Assembly: GCA_017847995.1 (NCBI GenBank)
Contig: JAGAPB010000009.1
Span: forward strand, 1-35,098
Source of the DNA: Oscillospiraceae bacterium
Lineage (GTDB): Bacteria; Bacillota; Clostridia; Oscillospirales; Ruminococcaceae
Direction: 5' to 3'
DNA length: 35,098 bases
The notes beneath the pieces are model-generated. The model searched no databases. It saw only the letters and a program-made list of their open reading frames with translations, and was not told the origin of the DNA. Below are positions 3,045-15,900 of the stretch, one piece after another. Position numbers and translations under genes: made by a program. How positions within the stretch are numbered: position 1 is the stretch's first letter; every line of letters starts with the position of its first letter.

Positions 3045-4199
3045 TCAGTAACGCAGTTTGGCCAGGTTGGTATCCTGCACAAAATTCATGTAGTTGTACA
3101 TCAGCAGAATGTCGTCGAAGCCTTTTTCCCCGGCCTGCTGCAGCACAGCGCTGAGGCTGAAGACATGGCGCAGGTCTGCCACCCAAACCTCGTCGTAGTT
3201 TTGGGTGAGGAAGGGGGCAAGGCTGTTGCCATAGCTGTCTTTGATAAGCAGCACACGGGTGGGGTTTTCCACGCCGCTGTTGACCACAATTTGGGTCAGG
3301 CCGTGGTTGCCCCACAGGAAGGAGGCGTACTTATCCCGTTCCTGCAGCTTTGCCAGATCATACATGCCGTCATAGCTTTGGCCGTCGATGATGACCTCCT
3401 CCACCGGCAGGTCGTACCAGGTGATGGTGTCGGGCACAGCGTTGTAAAGCTTGGCCTTGCTGTAATAGGTGCCGTAAAAGTCCTCCTGCAGGTTGGCGTA
3501 GGGGGCCAGCTCCTCCAGGGGTGCAGGGGTCATGCCCTTGCTTTCCACATATTCCCGATAGGCGTAGTAGGCGCCAAGGGTGGTCCAGTGGTGGTCGGTG
3601 CGGTAATAGATATACTCGTCATCATGAGCTTCCAGCACAGGGCCAAAGTCCAGTTTTTCCAGGTTTTCGGCATCAATGCGGGTGTACATTTCCCGGATCA
3701 GGGGCTCCTGGTCCACATTGGGGAAGCCGGCGGGAACCTTTTCCCCCAGCACCTGATAAGAGTTGGGAATGACCGCCAGGGTCACGCTCTGTTCCGGGTA
3801 CTGTTCCAGATATTCCTGCACAAAGCCGATGTTTTTTTCAAGCTGCTTCTGGTCAACGGCGGTGTACTTTTCGAACATATAATCATCCTGGCCAAAGGCC
3901 ACGCAGTTGTTTTCAATTTTCTGCAAAGCCGATTCCGAAACCGACTTCATGGTGATCCACTGGTCACGCCAGATAAACTGGTCGTTGACATATTCCTCGT
4001 AATCCATGGTGTACTCGTTGGCCACCAGCTTTTCCACCGTGAATTTGGGCTTCTGGGTCAGCACGCGGTTTTCCATTTCCGAAAACTGGCGGGTGGTGGA
4101 GGTCATGTCCATGCAGAACATAAAAATGAGGAACAGGGCAAACAGGCAAAGCAGCGGATAGCGCAGAACCTGACGCAGTTTTTCGGTCAATTTTTTCAT
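3045..4199 (-). CDS. DHHW family protein, AlgX/AlgJ-like partner of the MBOAT acyltransferase
   Basis: About 384 residues with one N-terminal membrane anchor (residues about 15-33), the rest predicted outside the membrane. The family-defining stretch YYRTDHHWTTLGAYYAY supplies the Asp-His pair, and a later LLIKDSYGNSLAPFL carries the serine expected of an SGNH-like O-acetyltransferase or esterase, as in AlgX/AlgJ. The gene lies 13-16 bases downstream of the MBOAT gene. By analogy with alginate and other polymer acetylation systems, it would take acetyl groups delivered across the membrane and place them on a surface polysaccharide; the polymer is unknown. A GTG at 4202, one codon earlier and seven bases after GGAGG, is an equally possible start. 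Family call is firm, substrate unknown. Confidence 0.85.
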   Translation of the reverse strand: MKKLTEKLRQVLRYPLLCLFALFLIFMFCMDMTSTTRQFSEMENRVLTQKPKFTVEKLVANEYTMDYEEYVNDQFIWRDQWITMKSVSESALQKIENNCVAFGQDDYMFEKYTAVDQKQLEKNIGFVQEYLEQYPEQSVTLAVIPNSYQVLGEKVPAGFPNVDQEPLIREMYTRIDAENLEKLDFGPVLEAHDDEYIYYRTDHHWTTLGAYYAYREYVESKGMTPAPLEELAPYANLQEDFYGTYYSKAKLYNAVPDTITWYDLPVEEVIIDGQSYDGMYDLAKLQERDKYASFLWGNHGLTQIVVNSGVENPTRVLLIKDSYGNSLAPFLTQNYDEVWVADLRHVFSLSAVLQQAGEKGFDDILLMYNYMNFVQDTNLAKLRY

Positions 4200-4215
4200 C
4201 ACTGCTCCACCTCCC

Positions 4216-5607
4216 TTAGAAACGGAAATACAGGAACGGATTGTAGGTGGCGTCTACCAGATAGGCCACCGACAGCACCAAAATTCCCAACAGCAAAACG
4301 ATGCGCAGGGGCTGGTACCACCCCTTGCCCATGGCTTCCAGCTTTTTGGAGGCCCAGGGCACGATGGGGGCCGAGAAGACGCAGCCCATTGCCAAAACCA
4401 CACCGTAGTTGCGCAGATAATAGATCCAGTCGGTGCCGCCAAAGCCGCCGAACATGCGGCCAAGCAGCACGCCAAGCTGGCCCAGGTCGGTGACGGCAAA
4501 CAGTGCCCAGCTCAGCATCACCAGCAGCACCAGGTAGAGGTGGCTGATGATTTTGTGACGCCCCAGGAAATCGCCGATGAGGTACTTTTCCAGCACCAGG
4601 AAAACGAAGCTGTAAAGGCCCCACAGAATAAAGTTCCAGTTGGCGCCATGCCAGAAGCCGGTGGCGGCCCACACCACAAACATATTGAAGATGTGGCGGG
4701 AACGGCTTACCCGGTTGCCGCCCAGGGGGATGTAGAGATATTCGCGGAACCAGGAGCCGAGGGTCATGTGCCAGCGGCGCCAGAATTCGGTAACAGAGCG
4801 GGAAATGTAGGGGTAATTGAAGTTATCGGGGAATTCGAAGCCCAGTATACGGCCCAGGCCGATGGCCATCAGCGAATAGCCCGAGAAGTCAAAGTAGATC
4901 TGAAGGGTATAGGCCAGCACGCCCAGCCAGGCCAAGGGCATGGAAATATTGGCAAAGCCGATGGTTTCCACCTCGGTCCACAAAGCGCCGCAGGCATTGG
5001 CGATCAGCACCTTGCGCCCCAGACCCATGATAAAGGTAGCGACACCGCTTTCGATGCGGTCCAGCCGGAGGGTGCGGGTCTTCAGCTCGCGGGCAACATC
5101 GGTATAGCGCACGATGGGGCCGGCGATGAGCTGGGGGAACAGCACCACAAAGGCACCGAAGTCGATGATATTGGTTTCGGCCTTCACTTTGCCGCGGTAG
5201 ACATCGATGGTGTAGCTCATGGTTTGGAAGGTGTAGAAGCTGATGCCCAAGGGCAGCGTGAGGGAAAGCATGCCGATGGAGGTGCCCAGCAGAGCGTTGA
5301 TATTTTCGATGAAGAAATTGGTGTACTTGAAAAAGCCCAGCATGCCCAGGTTAAAGAACACCGACAACAGCAAAAAGCCCTTGCAGGCGCGGGAATTGCC
5401 CCGGTGCTTTTCAATGCCGTTGGAGGCCACATAGTCCACCACGATGGAGGCCACCATGATGGGGAAATAGCGGACCTCGCCCCAGCAATAGAACACCAGG
5501 CTGAGCACCAGCAGGGTGAAGTTCTTCAGCTTTTTGGGCACAAGATAATAGAGCAAAAATGCAATGGGTAAAAAACGAAACAAAAACAGAATACTGCTGA
5601 ATACCAT
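4216..5607 (-). CDS. MBOAT family O-acyltransferase (AlgI/DltB-like)
   Basis: A 463-residue multi-spanning membrane enzyme. It contains the AlgI-type blocks PLGISFYTFQTMSYTIDVYRG, FPQLIAGPIVRY, YFDFSGYSLMAIGLGR, EFWRRWHMTLGSWFREYLYIPLGG and the invariant catalytic histidine in GFWHGANWNF. Such proteins pass an acyl group, usually acetyl, from the cytoplasm across the membrane. The ATG at 5607 has GGAGG at good distance. Its order after a DUF4358 lipoprotein and before a DHHW protein is a recurrent Firmicutes arrangement for acetylating a cell-surface glycopolymer. DltB is less likely because dltA, dltC and dltD are not present. The acceptor is not deducible from the sequence. Confidence 0.92.
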   Translation of the reverse strand: MVFSSILFLFRFLPIAFLLYYLVPKKLKNFTLLVLSLVFYCWGEVRYFPIMVASIVVDYVASNGIEKHRGNSRACKGFLLLSVFFNLGMLGFFKYTNFFIENINALLGTSIGMLSLTLPLGISFYTFQTMSYTIDVYRGKVKAETNIIDFGAFVVLFPQLIAGPIVRYTDVARELKTRTLRLDRIESGVATFIMGLGRKVLIANACGALWTEVETIGFANISMPLAWLGVLAYTLQIYFDFSGYSLMAIGLGRILGFEFPDNFNYPYISRSVTEFWRRWHMTLGSWFREYLYIPLGGNRVSRSRHIFNMFVVWAATGFWHGANWNFILWGLYSFVFLVLEKYLIGDFLGRHKIISHLYLVLLVMLSWALFAVTDLGQLGVLLGRMFGGFGGTDWIYYLRNYGVVLAMGCVFSAPIVPWASKKLEAMGKGWYQPLRIVLLLGILVLSVAYLVDATYNPFLYFRF

Positions 5608-13041: not shown

Positions 13042-13656
13042 TTATTTAACTGTACGATTTTCAGAAATATTTTCAGCGTAAAAACTGCTCAAAAAAGAAG
13101 GTAAGGTTTTTGCGGCATAACGGCGCAAAGAATAGTCGCCGCCATCCAGGCACCAGTCGTACATCAATGCCCGTTCGCACAGGGCGTAAAGCTTGACCAT
13201 CTCGTTGATGGTGTGGGCCGAGGAAAGCTCGCCCGAGGCCTGGCCTTCGGCAATGATGCTGCGCAGCAGGCGGTAATAGGTGCGTTTGTGGTCCAGCAGG
13301 TGTTTTTCGCCGCTGGTGACGAGCTGGGTGGAAAGCAGGCGGGCCAGCAGCTCCAGGGAAACACTGTTTTCGATCATGCCGAACAGTTCCCCGTTGAGGA
13401 AGAGAAGCTTTTCCATGGCGGTTTTGTCCGGGGTCAGTTCGGGCATCAAAGCCTCATATTTTTCGTCAAACAGGTCGCTGAGAGTGCCCAGCAGGGCATC
13501 CTTTCCGTCAAAGTAGTGGTAGAAGGAGCCCTTGGAGGTGTGGGAAAGGTCGATGATCTCCTCCACAGTGGTGTGTTCATAGCCCTGCTCGTAAAACAGC
13601 TTCCAGGCTGCCGAAACAATTTTGCCGCGGGTGTTGCGGGCGGTCTTTTTTGCCAT
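13042..13656 (-). CDS. TetR/AcrR family transcriptional regulator
   Basis: A 204-residue regulator. The N-terminal helix-turn-helix domain is clear: RGKIVSAAWKLFYEQGYEHTTVEEIIDLSHTSKGSFYHYFDGKDALLG, residues about 10-57. The C-terminal ligand-binding domain is not assignable to a ligand. ATG 13656 has GGGGAG upstream. It has its own promoter and lies upstream of putP on the same strand, with the 34-base palindrome between them. It may therefore control putP, either from that palindrome or through another target; its own promoter does not contain the palindrome. The divergent murT-like operon is another possible target. Confidence 0.88.
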   Translation of the reverse strand: MAKKTARNTRGKIVSAAWKLFYEQGYEHTTVEEIIDLSHTSKGSFYHYFDGKDALLGTLSDLFDEKYEALMPELTPDKTAMEKLLFLNGELFGMIENSVSLELLARLLSTQLVTSGEKHLLDHKRTYYRLLRSIIAEGQASGELSSAHTINEMVKLYALCERALMYDWCLDGGDYSLRRYAAKTLPSFLSSFYAENISENRTVK

Positions 13657-13729: not shown

Positions 13730-13758
13730 TTGACACCGTTATAAGGGAATGGTATAAT
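13730..13758 (+). promoter_or_regulatory. Consensus promoter of the murT-gatD-like operon
   Basis: TTGACA (13730-13735), 17 bases, TATAAT (13753-13758): a perfect sigma-A consensus with ideal spacing, divergent from the TetR promoter. The leader to the start is about 65 bases. Confidence 0.9.
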
Positions 13759-13828
13759 TTTTTGTTGGAATAACGCAACAAAATCCGCGTCAATAATACC
13801 ATTATCCATACAGATGGGAGCTGTAAAC

Positions 13829-15139
13829 ATGAAGTTTATTCTGGCTGTACTTGTGGGCCGCGTGGTGCGCTTTATCGGTCAATTTATTGGCCGCTCCACC
13901 AACCTGCCCGGCAGCATTGCCCTGCGCATCTGCCCCGACCTGCTTTCCCGCATGATCTTTGATGGGAAGGTGATTGCCGTGACCGGCAGCAACGGCAAAA
14001 CCACCACCTCCAACATGATCGCCCACACCCTGCGCAAACAGGGCTATTCGGTGGCCATCAACACCGAGGGCAGCAACCTGACCCCCGGCATCGCCACCAC
14101 CCTGCTGTGTGCCTGCAGGCTCAACCGCCATGTTCCCCAGGACTACATCGTGCTGGAAACCGACGAACGCTTTACCCCCATTGTGTTCAGCCACTTTGTT
14201 CCCGATGTGTTTGTAGTGAACAATCTGTTCCGCGATCAGGTGGTGCGCAACGGCCACCCCGATATTGTATATGACCGCATTGCCGCCGCGGTACACTCCG
14301 GCATGACCATGGTGGTCAACGCCAACGACCCCATCAGCCAGCGCCTGGCCGAAAACAGCGACCGGGTCTATTTTGGCATGGAGCGCACCAGCCGCTCGGC
14401 CGAGCAGCAGGTCTTTCTTACCGATGACTGCAAGGTCTGCCCCAAGTGCTTCCACAAGCTGCGCTACCACTACTACCACTACAACCACATCGGTGATTTT
14501 TACTGCGAACACTGCGGCTTTAAAACCCCCGAGATCGACTTTTTGGCCACCGACGTGGACTTTGAGGCCGGCACCTTTAAAATTAACGGCCAGCCTGCCA
14601 GTGTAACCTACAAAACCACCTTCCACACCATCAACGCCACCGCTGCCGTGGCCGCCTGTGTTACCGCCGGGCTTACCATCCAGCAGGCCATCGAGGGCGT
14701 TGCCACCTTCCAGGTAAGCAATGTGCGCTATGATGAAATGACCCTGTGCGGGCGCAAGGCTGTGCTGATGCTGACCAAACAGAACTCGGCCTCACTGGAC
14801 CAGTCCATCAGCTACGCCCTGGAGCAGCCCGAAGAAAAGACCGTGCTGCTGTATGTCAACAATGTGCTGTATTCCGGCTTCCGCGATATTTCCTGGCTGT
14901 ATGACGTGACCTTTGAACGCATGAAGGGCAAGGTGGACAAGATCGTATGCAGCGGCGACCGCGCCTACGACCTGGCCGTGCGCCTGCGGGAAGGCGGCTT
15001 TGCCGACAGCGACCTGGTGGTCGTGGACGAACTGGGCAAGGCCAAGGAAATGGTGGAAAACAACACCAAGGGAGCCCTTTACATTCTGGCCGCATCTGCC
15101 TTTGGCAACGAAGACGGCATTCTGGAGGCGCTGAAATGA
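13829..15139 (+). CDS. MurT-like Mur ligase (lipid II isoglutaminyl synthase ligase subunit homologue)
   Basis: A 436-residue Mur-ligase family protein. Near the start is the P-loop VTGSNGKTTTSNM (residues 51-63), then VNNLFRDQVVR typical of MurT. A four-cysteine zinc ribbon follows, inserted in the central domain (Cys204, Cys207, Cys226, Cys229). The C-terminal DUF1727 domain keeps RDISWLYD, whose Asp353 corresponds to the Asp that MurT contributes to GatD's catalytic triad. Genuine MurT, with GatD, amidates the D-glutamate of lipid II. Two MurT motifs as I remember them are altered: the F-G-R-x-E block reads VSNVRYDE, and the K-N-P block reads TKQNSAS. The start at 13829 follows GGGAG; an earlier in-frame ATG at 13814 overlaps it. 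The stop overlaps the next start (ATGA). Family secure, substrate uncertain. Confidence 0.85.
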   Translation: MKFILAVLVGRVVRFIGQFIGRSTNLPGSIALRICPDLLSRMIFDGKVIAVTGSNGKTTTSNMIAHTLRKQGYSVAINTEGSNLTPGIATTLLCACRLNRHVPQDYIVLETDERFTPIVFSHFVPDVFVVNNLFRDQVVRNGHPDIVYDRIAAAVHSGMTMVVNANDPISQRLAENSDRVYFGMERTSRSAEQQVFLTDDCKVCPKCFHKLRYHYYHYNHIGDFYCEHCGFKTPEIDFLATDVDFEAGTFKINGQPASVTYKTTFHTINATAAVAACVTAGLTIQQAIEGVATFQVSNVRYDEMTLCGRKAVLMLTKQNSASLDQSISYALEQPEEKTVLLYVNNVLYSGFRDISWLYDVTFERMKGKVDKIVCSGDRAYDLAVRLREGGFADSDLVVVDELGKAKEMVENNTKGALYILAASAFGNEDGILEALK

Positions 15140-15849
15140 GAGACATCACCATTCTTCACCTATATAACGACACTTTGGACCTGTACGGCGACTACTTCAA
15201 TGTGACCGCCATCCGCAACCGCATTTTGGAAATGGGCGGCAGCTGCACCGTTCTCACCGCCAACCTGGAGGATGAAGATATTCCCCTGGAGCAGGCCGAC
15301 CTGGTGTATATGGGCCACGGCAAGGCCCGCAATCTGGCCGCTGTGGCGCCCCACTTTGCCCGGTTTGGCCAGCGTGTCATCCAGGCCATCGAGGGCGGCA
15401 AGGTATTCTTCGTCACCGGCAACAGCCGTCTGCTGTTCGGCAAGGAATTTGAAGGCGTGACCGAAGGCACTGTGCACCCCGGCATCGGTCTTTTTGACTA
15501 TATGGGCAAAGAGACCAACAAGGTCTTTACCAGTGACGTGTTCGGTCGCTGCTCCTTTGACCCCAACATCCGCACCTACGGCTTTATCAACCGCACCCAG
15601 CACATTGTGGGCGAAAACACCTCTCCCCTGTTCCAGATCGAACGCGGCGCCTGCGACGGCACCGAAGCCACCGGCCTGGAAGGCACCCATTACAAAAACT
15701 TTTTCGCCACCTGGCAGATGGGCCCCATCCTGGAACGCAACCCCGCCCTGCTGCGCCACCTGCTGACCACCCTGCTGGGGGACGAGATGGGCGACTATGA
15801 TGATACCTTTGCCCGCAAGGCCCTGGAACGAGTCTTGGCCGAAGGCTAA
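15136..15849 (+). CDS. GatD-like glutamine amidotransferase homologue lacking the catalytic residues
   Basis: A 237-residue class I amidotransferase-fold protein translationally coupled to the MurT-like gene (ATGA overlap). The opening ITILHLYNDTLDLYGDYFN matches GatD (HLYPDxMNxYGD). In GatD the nucleophile Cys94 lies in a C-G-G-Y-Q block; here the same position is Thr94 in FVTGNSRLLFG. The catalytic His of the Y-L-H-G-P block is Met195 in TWQMGPILERNP. The G-G-G-Q-D block reads GHGKA and G-F-E-N-H reads GFINR. The protein's only cysteines (37, 139, 173) are elsewhere. Glutaminase activity by the known mechanism is therefore very unlikely. Reading frame and length are intact, so it is not a decayed gene. 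It may be a structural partner, use free ammonia, or serve another reaction. Alignment was by eye. Confidence 0.8.
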   Translation: MRDITILHLYNDTLDLYGDYFNVTAIRNRILEMGGSCTVLTANLEDEDIPLEQADLVYMGHGKARNLAAVAPHFARFGQRVIQAIEGGKVFFVTGNSRLLFGKEFEGVTEGTVHPGIGLFDYMGKETNKVFTSDVFGRCSFDPNIRTYGFINRTQHIVGENTSPLFQIERGACDGTEATGLEGTHYKNFFATWQMGPILERNPALLRHLLTTLLGDEMGDYDDTFARKALERVLAEG

Positions 15850-15867
15850 AAGCAACACAAAAGCACA

Positions 15868-15900
15868 AATCCCCCTGACGGCTGTCAGGGGGATTTTTTT
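15868..15900. terminator. Shared bidirectional terminator of the GatD-like gene and malQ
   Basis: AATCCCCCTGAC (15868-15879) pairs with GTCAGGGGGATT (15884-15895) around loop GGCT, followed by a T-run on the plus strand. It lies between converging genes; minus-strand termination of malQ is weaker. Confidence 0.88.

Follow-up and report, generated by a model that had tools for sequence, protein, structure and literature searches.

The window, a stretch of 35,098 nucleotides of DNA from an Oscillospiraceae bacterium, encodes a MurT-GatD pair in which GatD has lost its glutaminase site. We found that such glutaminase-less pairs are a large, old, functional and widespread natural variant family of MurT/GatD, and that their ligase chemistry has probably changed. 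The original prediction had described the loss for the window gene; it is not singular to that gene but belongs to a deep clade that extends over many families and in which the MurT partner is altered too. Because these MurTs are altered near the active site and in the loop that faces GatD, a changed amine donor is favored over ordinary amidation with borrowed ammonia, and we consider the chances about even that the window pair is an ATP-dependent peptidoglycan-precursor ligase that couples D-Glu to another amine, which is probably an amino acid.

The gatD homologue (positions 15136 to 15849, forward strand) is, as had been claimed, an unbroken frame coupled to a MurT-like ligase gene (13814 to 15139, forward strand). 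It has 237 codons plus stop and encodes a protein of 237 aa, and its start overlaps the stop of the ligase gene in the sequence ATGA. The protein matched the NF045636 profile at E 4e-19 (69 bits, below the curated cut-off of 400) and the GATase_3 profile at 30 bits (cut-off 27), and its sequence matches in the PDB were the GatDs of S. pneumoniae and S. aureus, at E about 1e-16. The nearest solved structure to its AlphaFold model (pLDDT 96) was S. aureus GatD (5n9m/6gs2; TM 0.86), so that the predicted fold is that of GatD. Within this fold, loss of the glutaminase site was confirmed at the level of sequence alignment. The motifs FVTGNSRLLFG, GHGK, GFINR and TWQMGP are present in the intact frame as described, and Met195 (15718 to 15720, forward strand), in TWQMGP, indeed replaces the catalytic His189 of S. 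aureus. Thr94 had been named as the counterpart of Cys94; in the alignments with the S. aureus and S. pneumoniae GatDs, however, Cys94 falls on Gly95 and Ile93 on Thr94, so that Thr94-Gly95-Asn96 (15415 to 15423, forward strand) replaces the Ile-Cys94-Gly of working GatDs, and the nucleophile position holds no Cys whichever of the two residues is taken. In addition, Gln98, Glu147, His149 and Gly60, each present in 100% of 77 normal GatDs, are replaced. Previous work showed that in S. aureus GatD even the C94S variant is inactive (PMC6113224). A different catalytic Cys or His within the window GatD was considered and rejected, since none of Cys37, Cys139 and Cys173, which had been listed as possible substitutes, is conserved among the nearest 12 sequences (a 12-member subclade), and no alternative nucleophile is apparent there.

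A consensus scan gave a putative promoter upstream of murT (13730 to 13758, forward strand; TTGACA-17-TATAAT, 12/12, with TG before the second hexamer) and a putative terminator, a hairpin of 13 pairs with a T tail, directly 3' of gatD (15867 to 15896, forward strand). When compared with the pair of L034, an Oscillospiraceae MAG from buffalo cecum that is 89% identical and carries the same motifs, dN/dS was 0.10 for gatD and 0.12 for murT. Together with the overlapping operon, the single clade and the natural fusions described below, the value of 0.10 supports the earlier view that the pair is under selection rather than in decay. The operon sits between murJ and the FtsZ/FtsW/MurF/MurE/PBP genes. 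TetR, SSF, GH77 and FtsZ neighbors are common to the window and L034, but in the next three carriers compared none of them was found beside the pair, and when 754 ORFs from carrier stretches were clustered, only the pair itself was widely shared and no conserved neighbor named a donor. The TetR-family regulator (window 13042-13656), divergent from murT and also present in L034, is a possible regulator of the operon in both. Beside murJ (window 3045-5607), an MBOAT acyltransferase adjoins a DHHW/AlgX-like protein, and the two resemble a cell-surface O-acetylation pair. A second intact murT-gatD, for which the original prediction had advised a search, was not found in the genome (95% complete), where MurT_C matched once and a single GatD is present; the only further GATase_3 match is HisH. 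The contig with the his genes (G000:C122, L002) has 38% GC versus 57% in the window and is possibly a contaminant in the MAG.

The window MurT (441 aa) consists of a Mur ligase middle domain, a Cys4 zinc ribbon and a MurT C-terminal domain. It matched Pfam MurT_C above cut-off (E 4e-20) as well as Mur_ligase_M, and the MurT of PDB 7q8e at E 4e-57; against the NCBIfam equivalogs NF045635 and NF052464 it scored 203 and 227 bits, both below the cut-off of 800. In the alignment it keeps K59, E108 and the four zinc-ribbon Cys. New, however, is Arg119 within the sequence LE-x-DER (14168 to 14170, forward strand; position 112 in S. aureus), the residue by which the glutaminase-less clade is recognized, and both the DNxAD motif and the acidic GatD-facing loop (D137, E141) are missing, with VNNVLYSGFRD and RDQVVRNGH in their stead. 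Asp349 is retained in the window subclade, as are D134 and R138 of the loop in the MurTs of the window clade.

We then determined how far the loss extends. Among 100 genomes of the window's GTDB family, 29 had a GatD homologue; by alignment, 23 of these had the glutaminase-less type only, five the normal type only, and one a normal pair plus a glutaminase-less fragment. In a sample of the class Clostridia, MurT_C was found in 153 of 293 genomes, and at least 37 of these 153 carried the glutaminase-less type. Glutaminase-less pairs also occur in Actinomycetota, some of them fused, and named carriers include Lancefieldella (Atopobium) parvula and Vescimonas fastidiosa. The PF08353 score, tried as a marker of type, worked in Clostridia and failed in Actinomycetota, where many low-scoring genomes were normal. 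In a MurT tree of 114 rows, built by a quick method with no bootstrap, 70 glutaminase-less pairs fell into one clade with an SH-aLRT of 99. The proposed check for a clade-wide loss was thus answered positively, the loss being shared by these 70 homologous pairs, more than expected by chance. Two further independent losses lie elsewhere in the tree. Isolated losses of Cys94 and/or His189 beside a MurT of normal type (L099, L100, L062, L156 and L157) are separate from the main clade, and some of them may be sequencing or MAG errors. Three Actinomycetota loci (L140, L143 and L144) encode natural single-chain MurT-GatD fusions of 751-771 aa that are glutaminase-less and carry T-G-N; together with the dN/dS of 0.10, these fusions show that the dead GatD is in use as a subunit. 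In one genus (f40 g152), a normal and two glutaminase-less pair types replace each other between species (L074, L076, L083; L082, L085, L086, L088; L101, L102), which suggests that wall-modification genes are exchanged. The GatD of a termite-gut actinomycete MAG (L036:3319-4410) has a long Ala/Pro/Val-rich insertion. Searches of the open literature returned no account of a natural glutaminase-less GatD.

Residues were compared between 77 normal and 70 altered pairs in S. aureus numbering. All altered GatDs lack C94, H189, Q98, E147, H149 and G60, which are invariant in the normal ones; R33 and G151 are also lost, and T-G-N is gained. The altered MurTs retain the ATP/acceptor core (K59, N85, E108, D110 and E111) and the zinc cysteines. 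Beside the ATP-site Glu they have gained Arg112, which is found in 88% (weighted) of altered MurTs where normal MurTs have Ala, Ser, Gly or Phe; D137 and E141 are lost from the GatD-facing loop, and D346 of DNxAD is lost, the replacement of this motif varying in length and sequence among subfamilies. In S. pneumoniae the MurT loop that faces GatD borders a putative ammonia channel. DNxAD has been discussed beside the MurE motif D(D,N)P(N,A), which binds the incoming amino acid, although the contact proposed for it in MurT is with the lipid II lysine; we infer that it may form the donor site.

On this basis we suggest that the window pair would be a functional peptidoglycan-precursor ligase, dependent on ATP, that has given up glutamine. 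Its MurT would still activate a precursor carboxylate as an acyl phosphate, most likely the D-Glu alpha-carboxyl of the lipid-linked stem peptide. The attacking amine would not be ammonia released by GatD and would most likely be an amino acid, differing by subfamily, and the glutaminase-dead GatD would persist as a structural partner and may also contribute to the site that binds the donor. The cadaverine that Negativicutes carry on D-Glu was considered as a model for a diamine donor.

Mammalian carbamoyl phosphate synthetase I has likewise retained a class I glutaminase domain, lost its catalytic Cys and come to use free ammonia; it works, however, with another synthase, whereas the partner of the window GatD is a Mur ligase. 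The known counterpart of the window pair is the MurT/GatD lipid II isoglutaminyl synthase (S. aureus 6gs2/6h5e, S. pneumoniae 6fqb, S. pyogenes 9sq9), with which it shares the operon, both folds, the zinc ribbon, the ATP site and the acceptor residue Asn85, and from which it differs by a GatD without Cys94, His189 and other glutamine-site residues and by a MurT with Arg112 and without D137, E141 and DNxAD. The S. aureus MurT/GatD C94G laboratory mutant also combines a glutaminase-dead GatD with a complete MurT, but there MurT is unchanged and activity depends on NH3 at pH 8.5, whereas here MurT has changed too. Archaeal MurT-like and pMur ligases are relatives of MurT that function with no active GatD, as the altered MurTs would; unlike the archaeal MurT-like proteins, which have no GatD at all, the altered MurTs are accompanied by one that is retained and conserved (PMC11915815).

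In group B walls the cross-link starts at the D-Glu alpha-carboxyl. This bond needs the carboxyl of the stem peptide to be activated, which is MurT chemistry, whereas FemX and ATP-grasp ligases activate the added amino acid instead. The Acetobacterium wall was reportedly assigned to group B by Kandler and Schoberth in 1979. Ala, Glu, Lys, Orn and Ser make up the reported peptidoglycan composition of E. limosum, and the wall types listed for Eubacterium include B2alpha. Wherever a pair was found in the genera Acetobacterium (18/18 genomes) and Eubacterium (5/5), it was only the glutaminase-less one; these include Acetobacterium woodii (G178, whose c1 subunit and PDB 4bem_J are identical along 182 residues) and Eubacterium limosum ATCC 8486 (G710). 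Other Eubacteriaceae genera have the normal pair, and one genus has both (clearly in G383, and by its MurTs in G721). The MurE motif was DNPA in six Eubacteriaceae genomes with the glutaminase-less pair only, and DNSR, which has the arginine seen in DNPR of DAP type, in five genomes with the normal pair only and in the two with both pairs; the divergent genomes G324 and G706 have a MurE with neither. That A. woodii and E. limosum, of group B genera, have the altered pair alone while their normal-pair relatives have a DAP-like MurE counts for a D-Glu ligase, and the presence of a normal and an altered pair together in G383 speaks for different products.

A group B function of the whole altered clade is contradicted by L. 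parvula, which carries the glutaminase-less pair and has A4alpha peptidoglycan; either the subfamilies must have different donors or products, or the link to group B is coincidental. Microbacteriaceae are the best-known family of group B, and none of the altered-clade pairs could be linked to them. Two GC-rich Actinomycetota loci with an independent loss (L187 and L188) were considered as Microbacteriaceae and rejected, since the MurT tree puts both beside small-genome Actinomycetota. On a Leifsonia shinshuensis plasmid for metal resistance (L198:8016-10965), an M15 peptidase called VanY-like comes after a murT-gatD of normal type, and in R. albus 7 the normal pair is on the conjugative plasmid pRUMAL02. 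The A4alpha wall of L. parvula, the normal Leifsonia plasmid pair and the Asp349 kept in the window subclade count against a changed donor for the window pair, as do the window MurE, whose motif DNPR is of DAP type, and the distance of the window subfamily from that of the Eubacteriaceae. The open literature that we searched yielded no gene for the D-Glu branching step of group B walls. We propose tentatively, and with less than even confidence, that the altered clade comprises D-Glu alpha-carboxyl ligases with subfamily-specific amine donors, the Eubacteriaceae branch being the group B ligase for the bridging diamino acid.

The original prediction had weighed free ammonia or another glutaminase against a different reaction; these were the right two alternatives, although no evidence was found for another glutaminase. 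The chief rival to a changed donor is that the pair still makes D-isoglutamine, with MurT using free ammonia and the dead GatD serving only as a scaffold, which we regard as possible but rather doubtful. The gut is rich in ammonia, and the nearest named relative is a gut bacterium (buffalo cecum), which fits ammonia use, as do the Asp349, D134 and R138 kept in the window clade. Furthermore, lipid II is amidated with NH3 at pH 8.5 when S. aureus MurT is combined with GatD C94G, while MurT alone is inactive, so that a dead GatD can be a real partner; at pH 7.5, however, the same mutant pair is inactive (PMC3266927). Plain ammonia use would not require coordinated changes in MurT, which counts for a changed donor, and it also leaves unexplained the genome with both pairs and the altered pair alone in Eubacteriaceae whose D-Glu carries the cross-link. 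We consider it unlikely that the acceptor is different, or that the dead GatD regulates MurT, with a product that is not a D-Glu derivative: archaeal MurT-like proteins without GatD do exist (PMC11915815) and the proposed lipid II contact DNxAD is lost in altered MurTs, but every MurT compared conserves the catalytic core and Asn85 of the acceptor site, and the window operon lies between murJ and the FtsZ/FtsW/MurF/MurE/PBP genes. It is very improbable that a separate glutaminase supplies GatD with ammonia in trans, or that GatD itself conceals a glutaminase site, as we found no support for it, no conserved Cys and no conserved partner gene adjoining the pair. Decay, to which the loss of catalytic residues taken alone might point, is refuted by the low dN/dS, the intact operon signals, the close relative with the same motifs and the clade of 70, and is scarcely credible.

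Public records label the pairs of this clade 'glutamine amidotransferase', 'hypothetical protein' or 'Mur ligase', and from homology a genome that carries one would be taken to produce amidated peptidoglycan. If other amines are attached, the predicted wall chemistry would be wrong for a good part of the gut Clostridia and Coriobacteriia, and so would the prediction of which muramyl peptides the host meets at the D-Glu position. The altered pairs also provide a concrete candidate gene for an old gap, namely how group B walls branch from D-Glu, and since Eubacterium limosum is a genetically tractable acetogen, this idea is testable. The altered family may include the enzyme behind group B walls.
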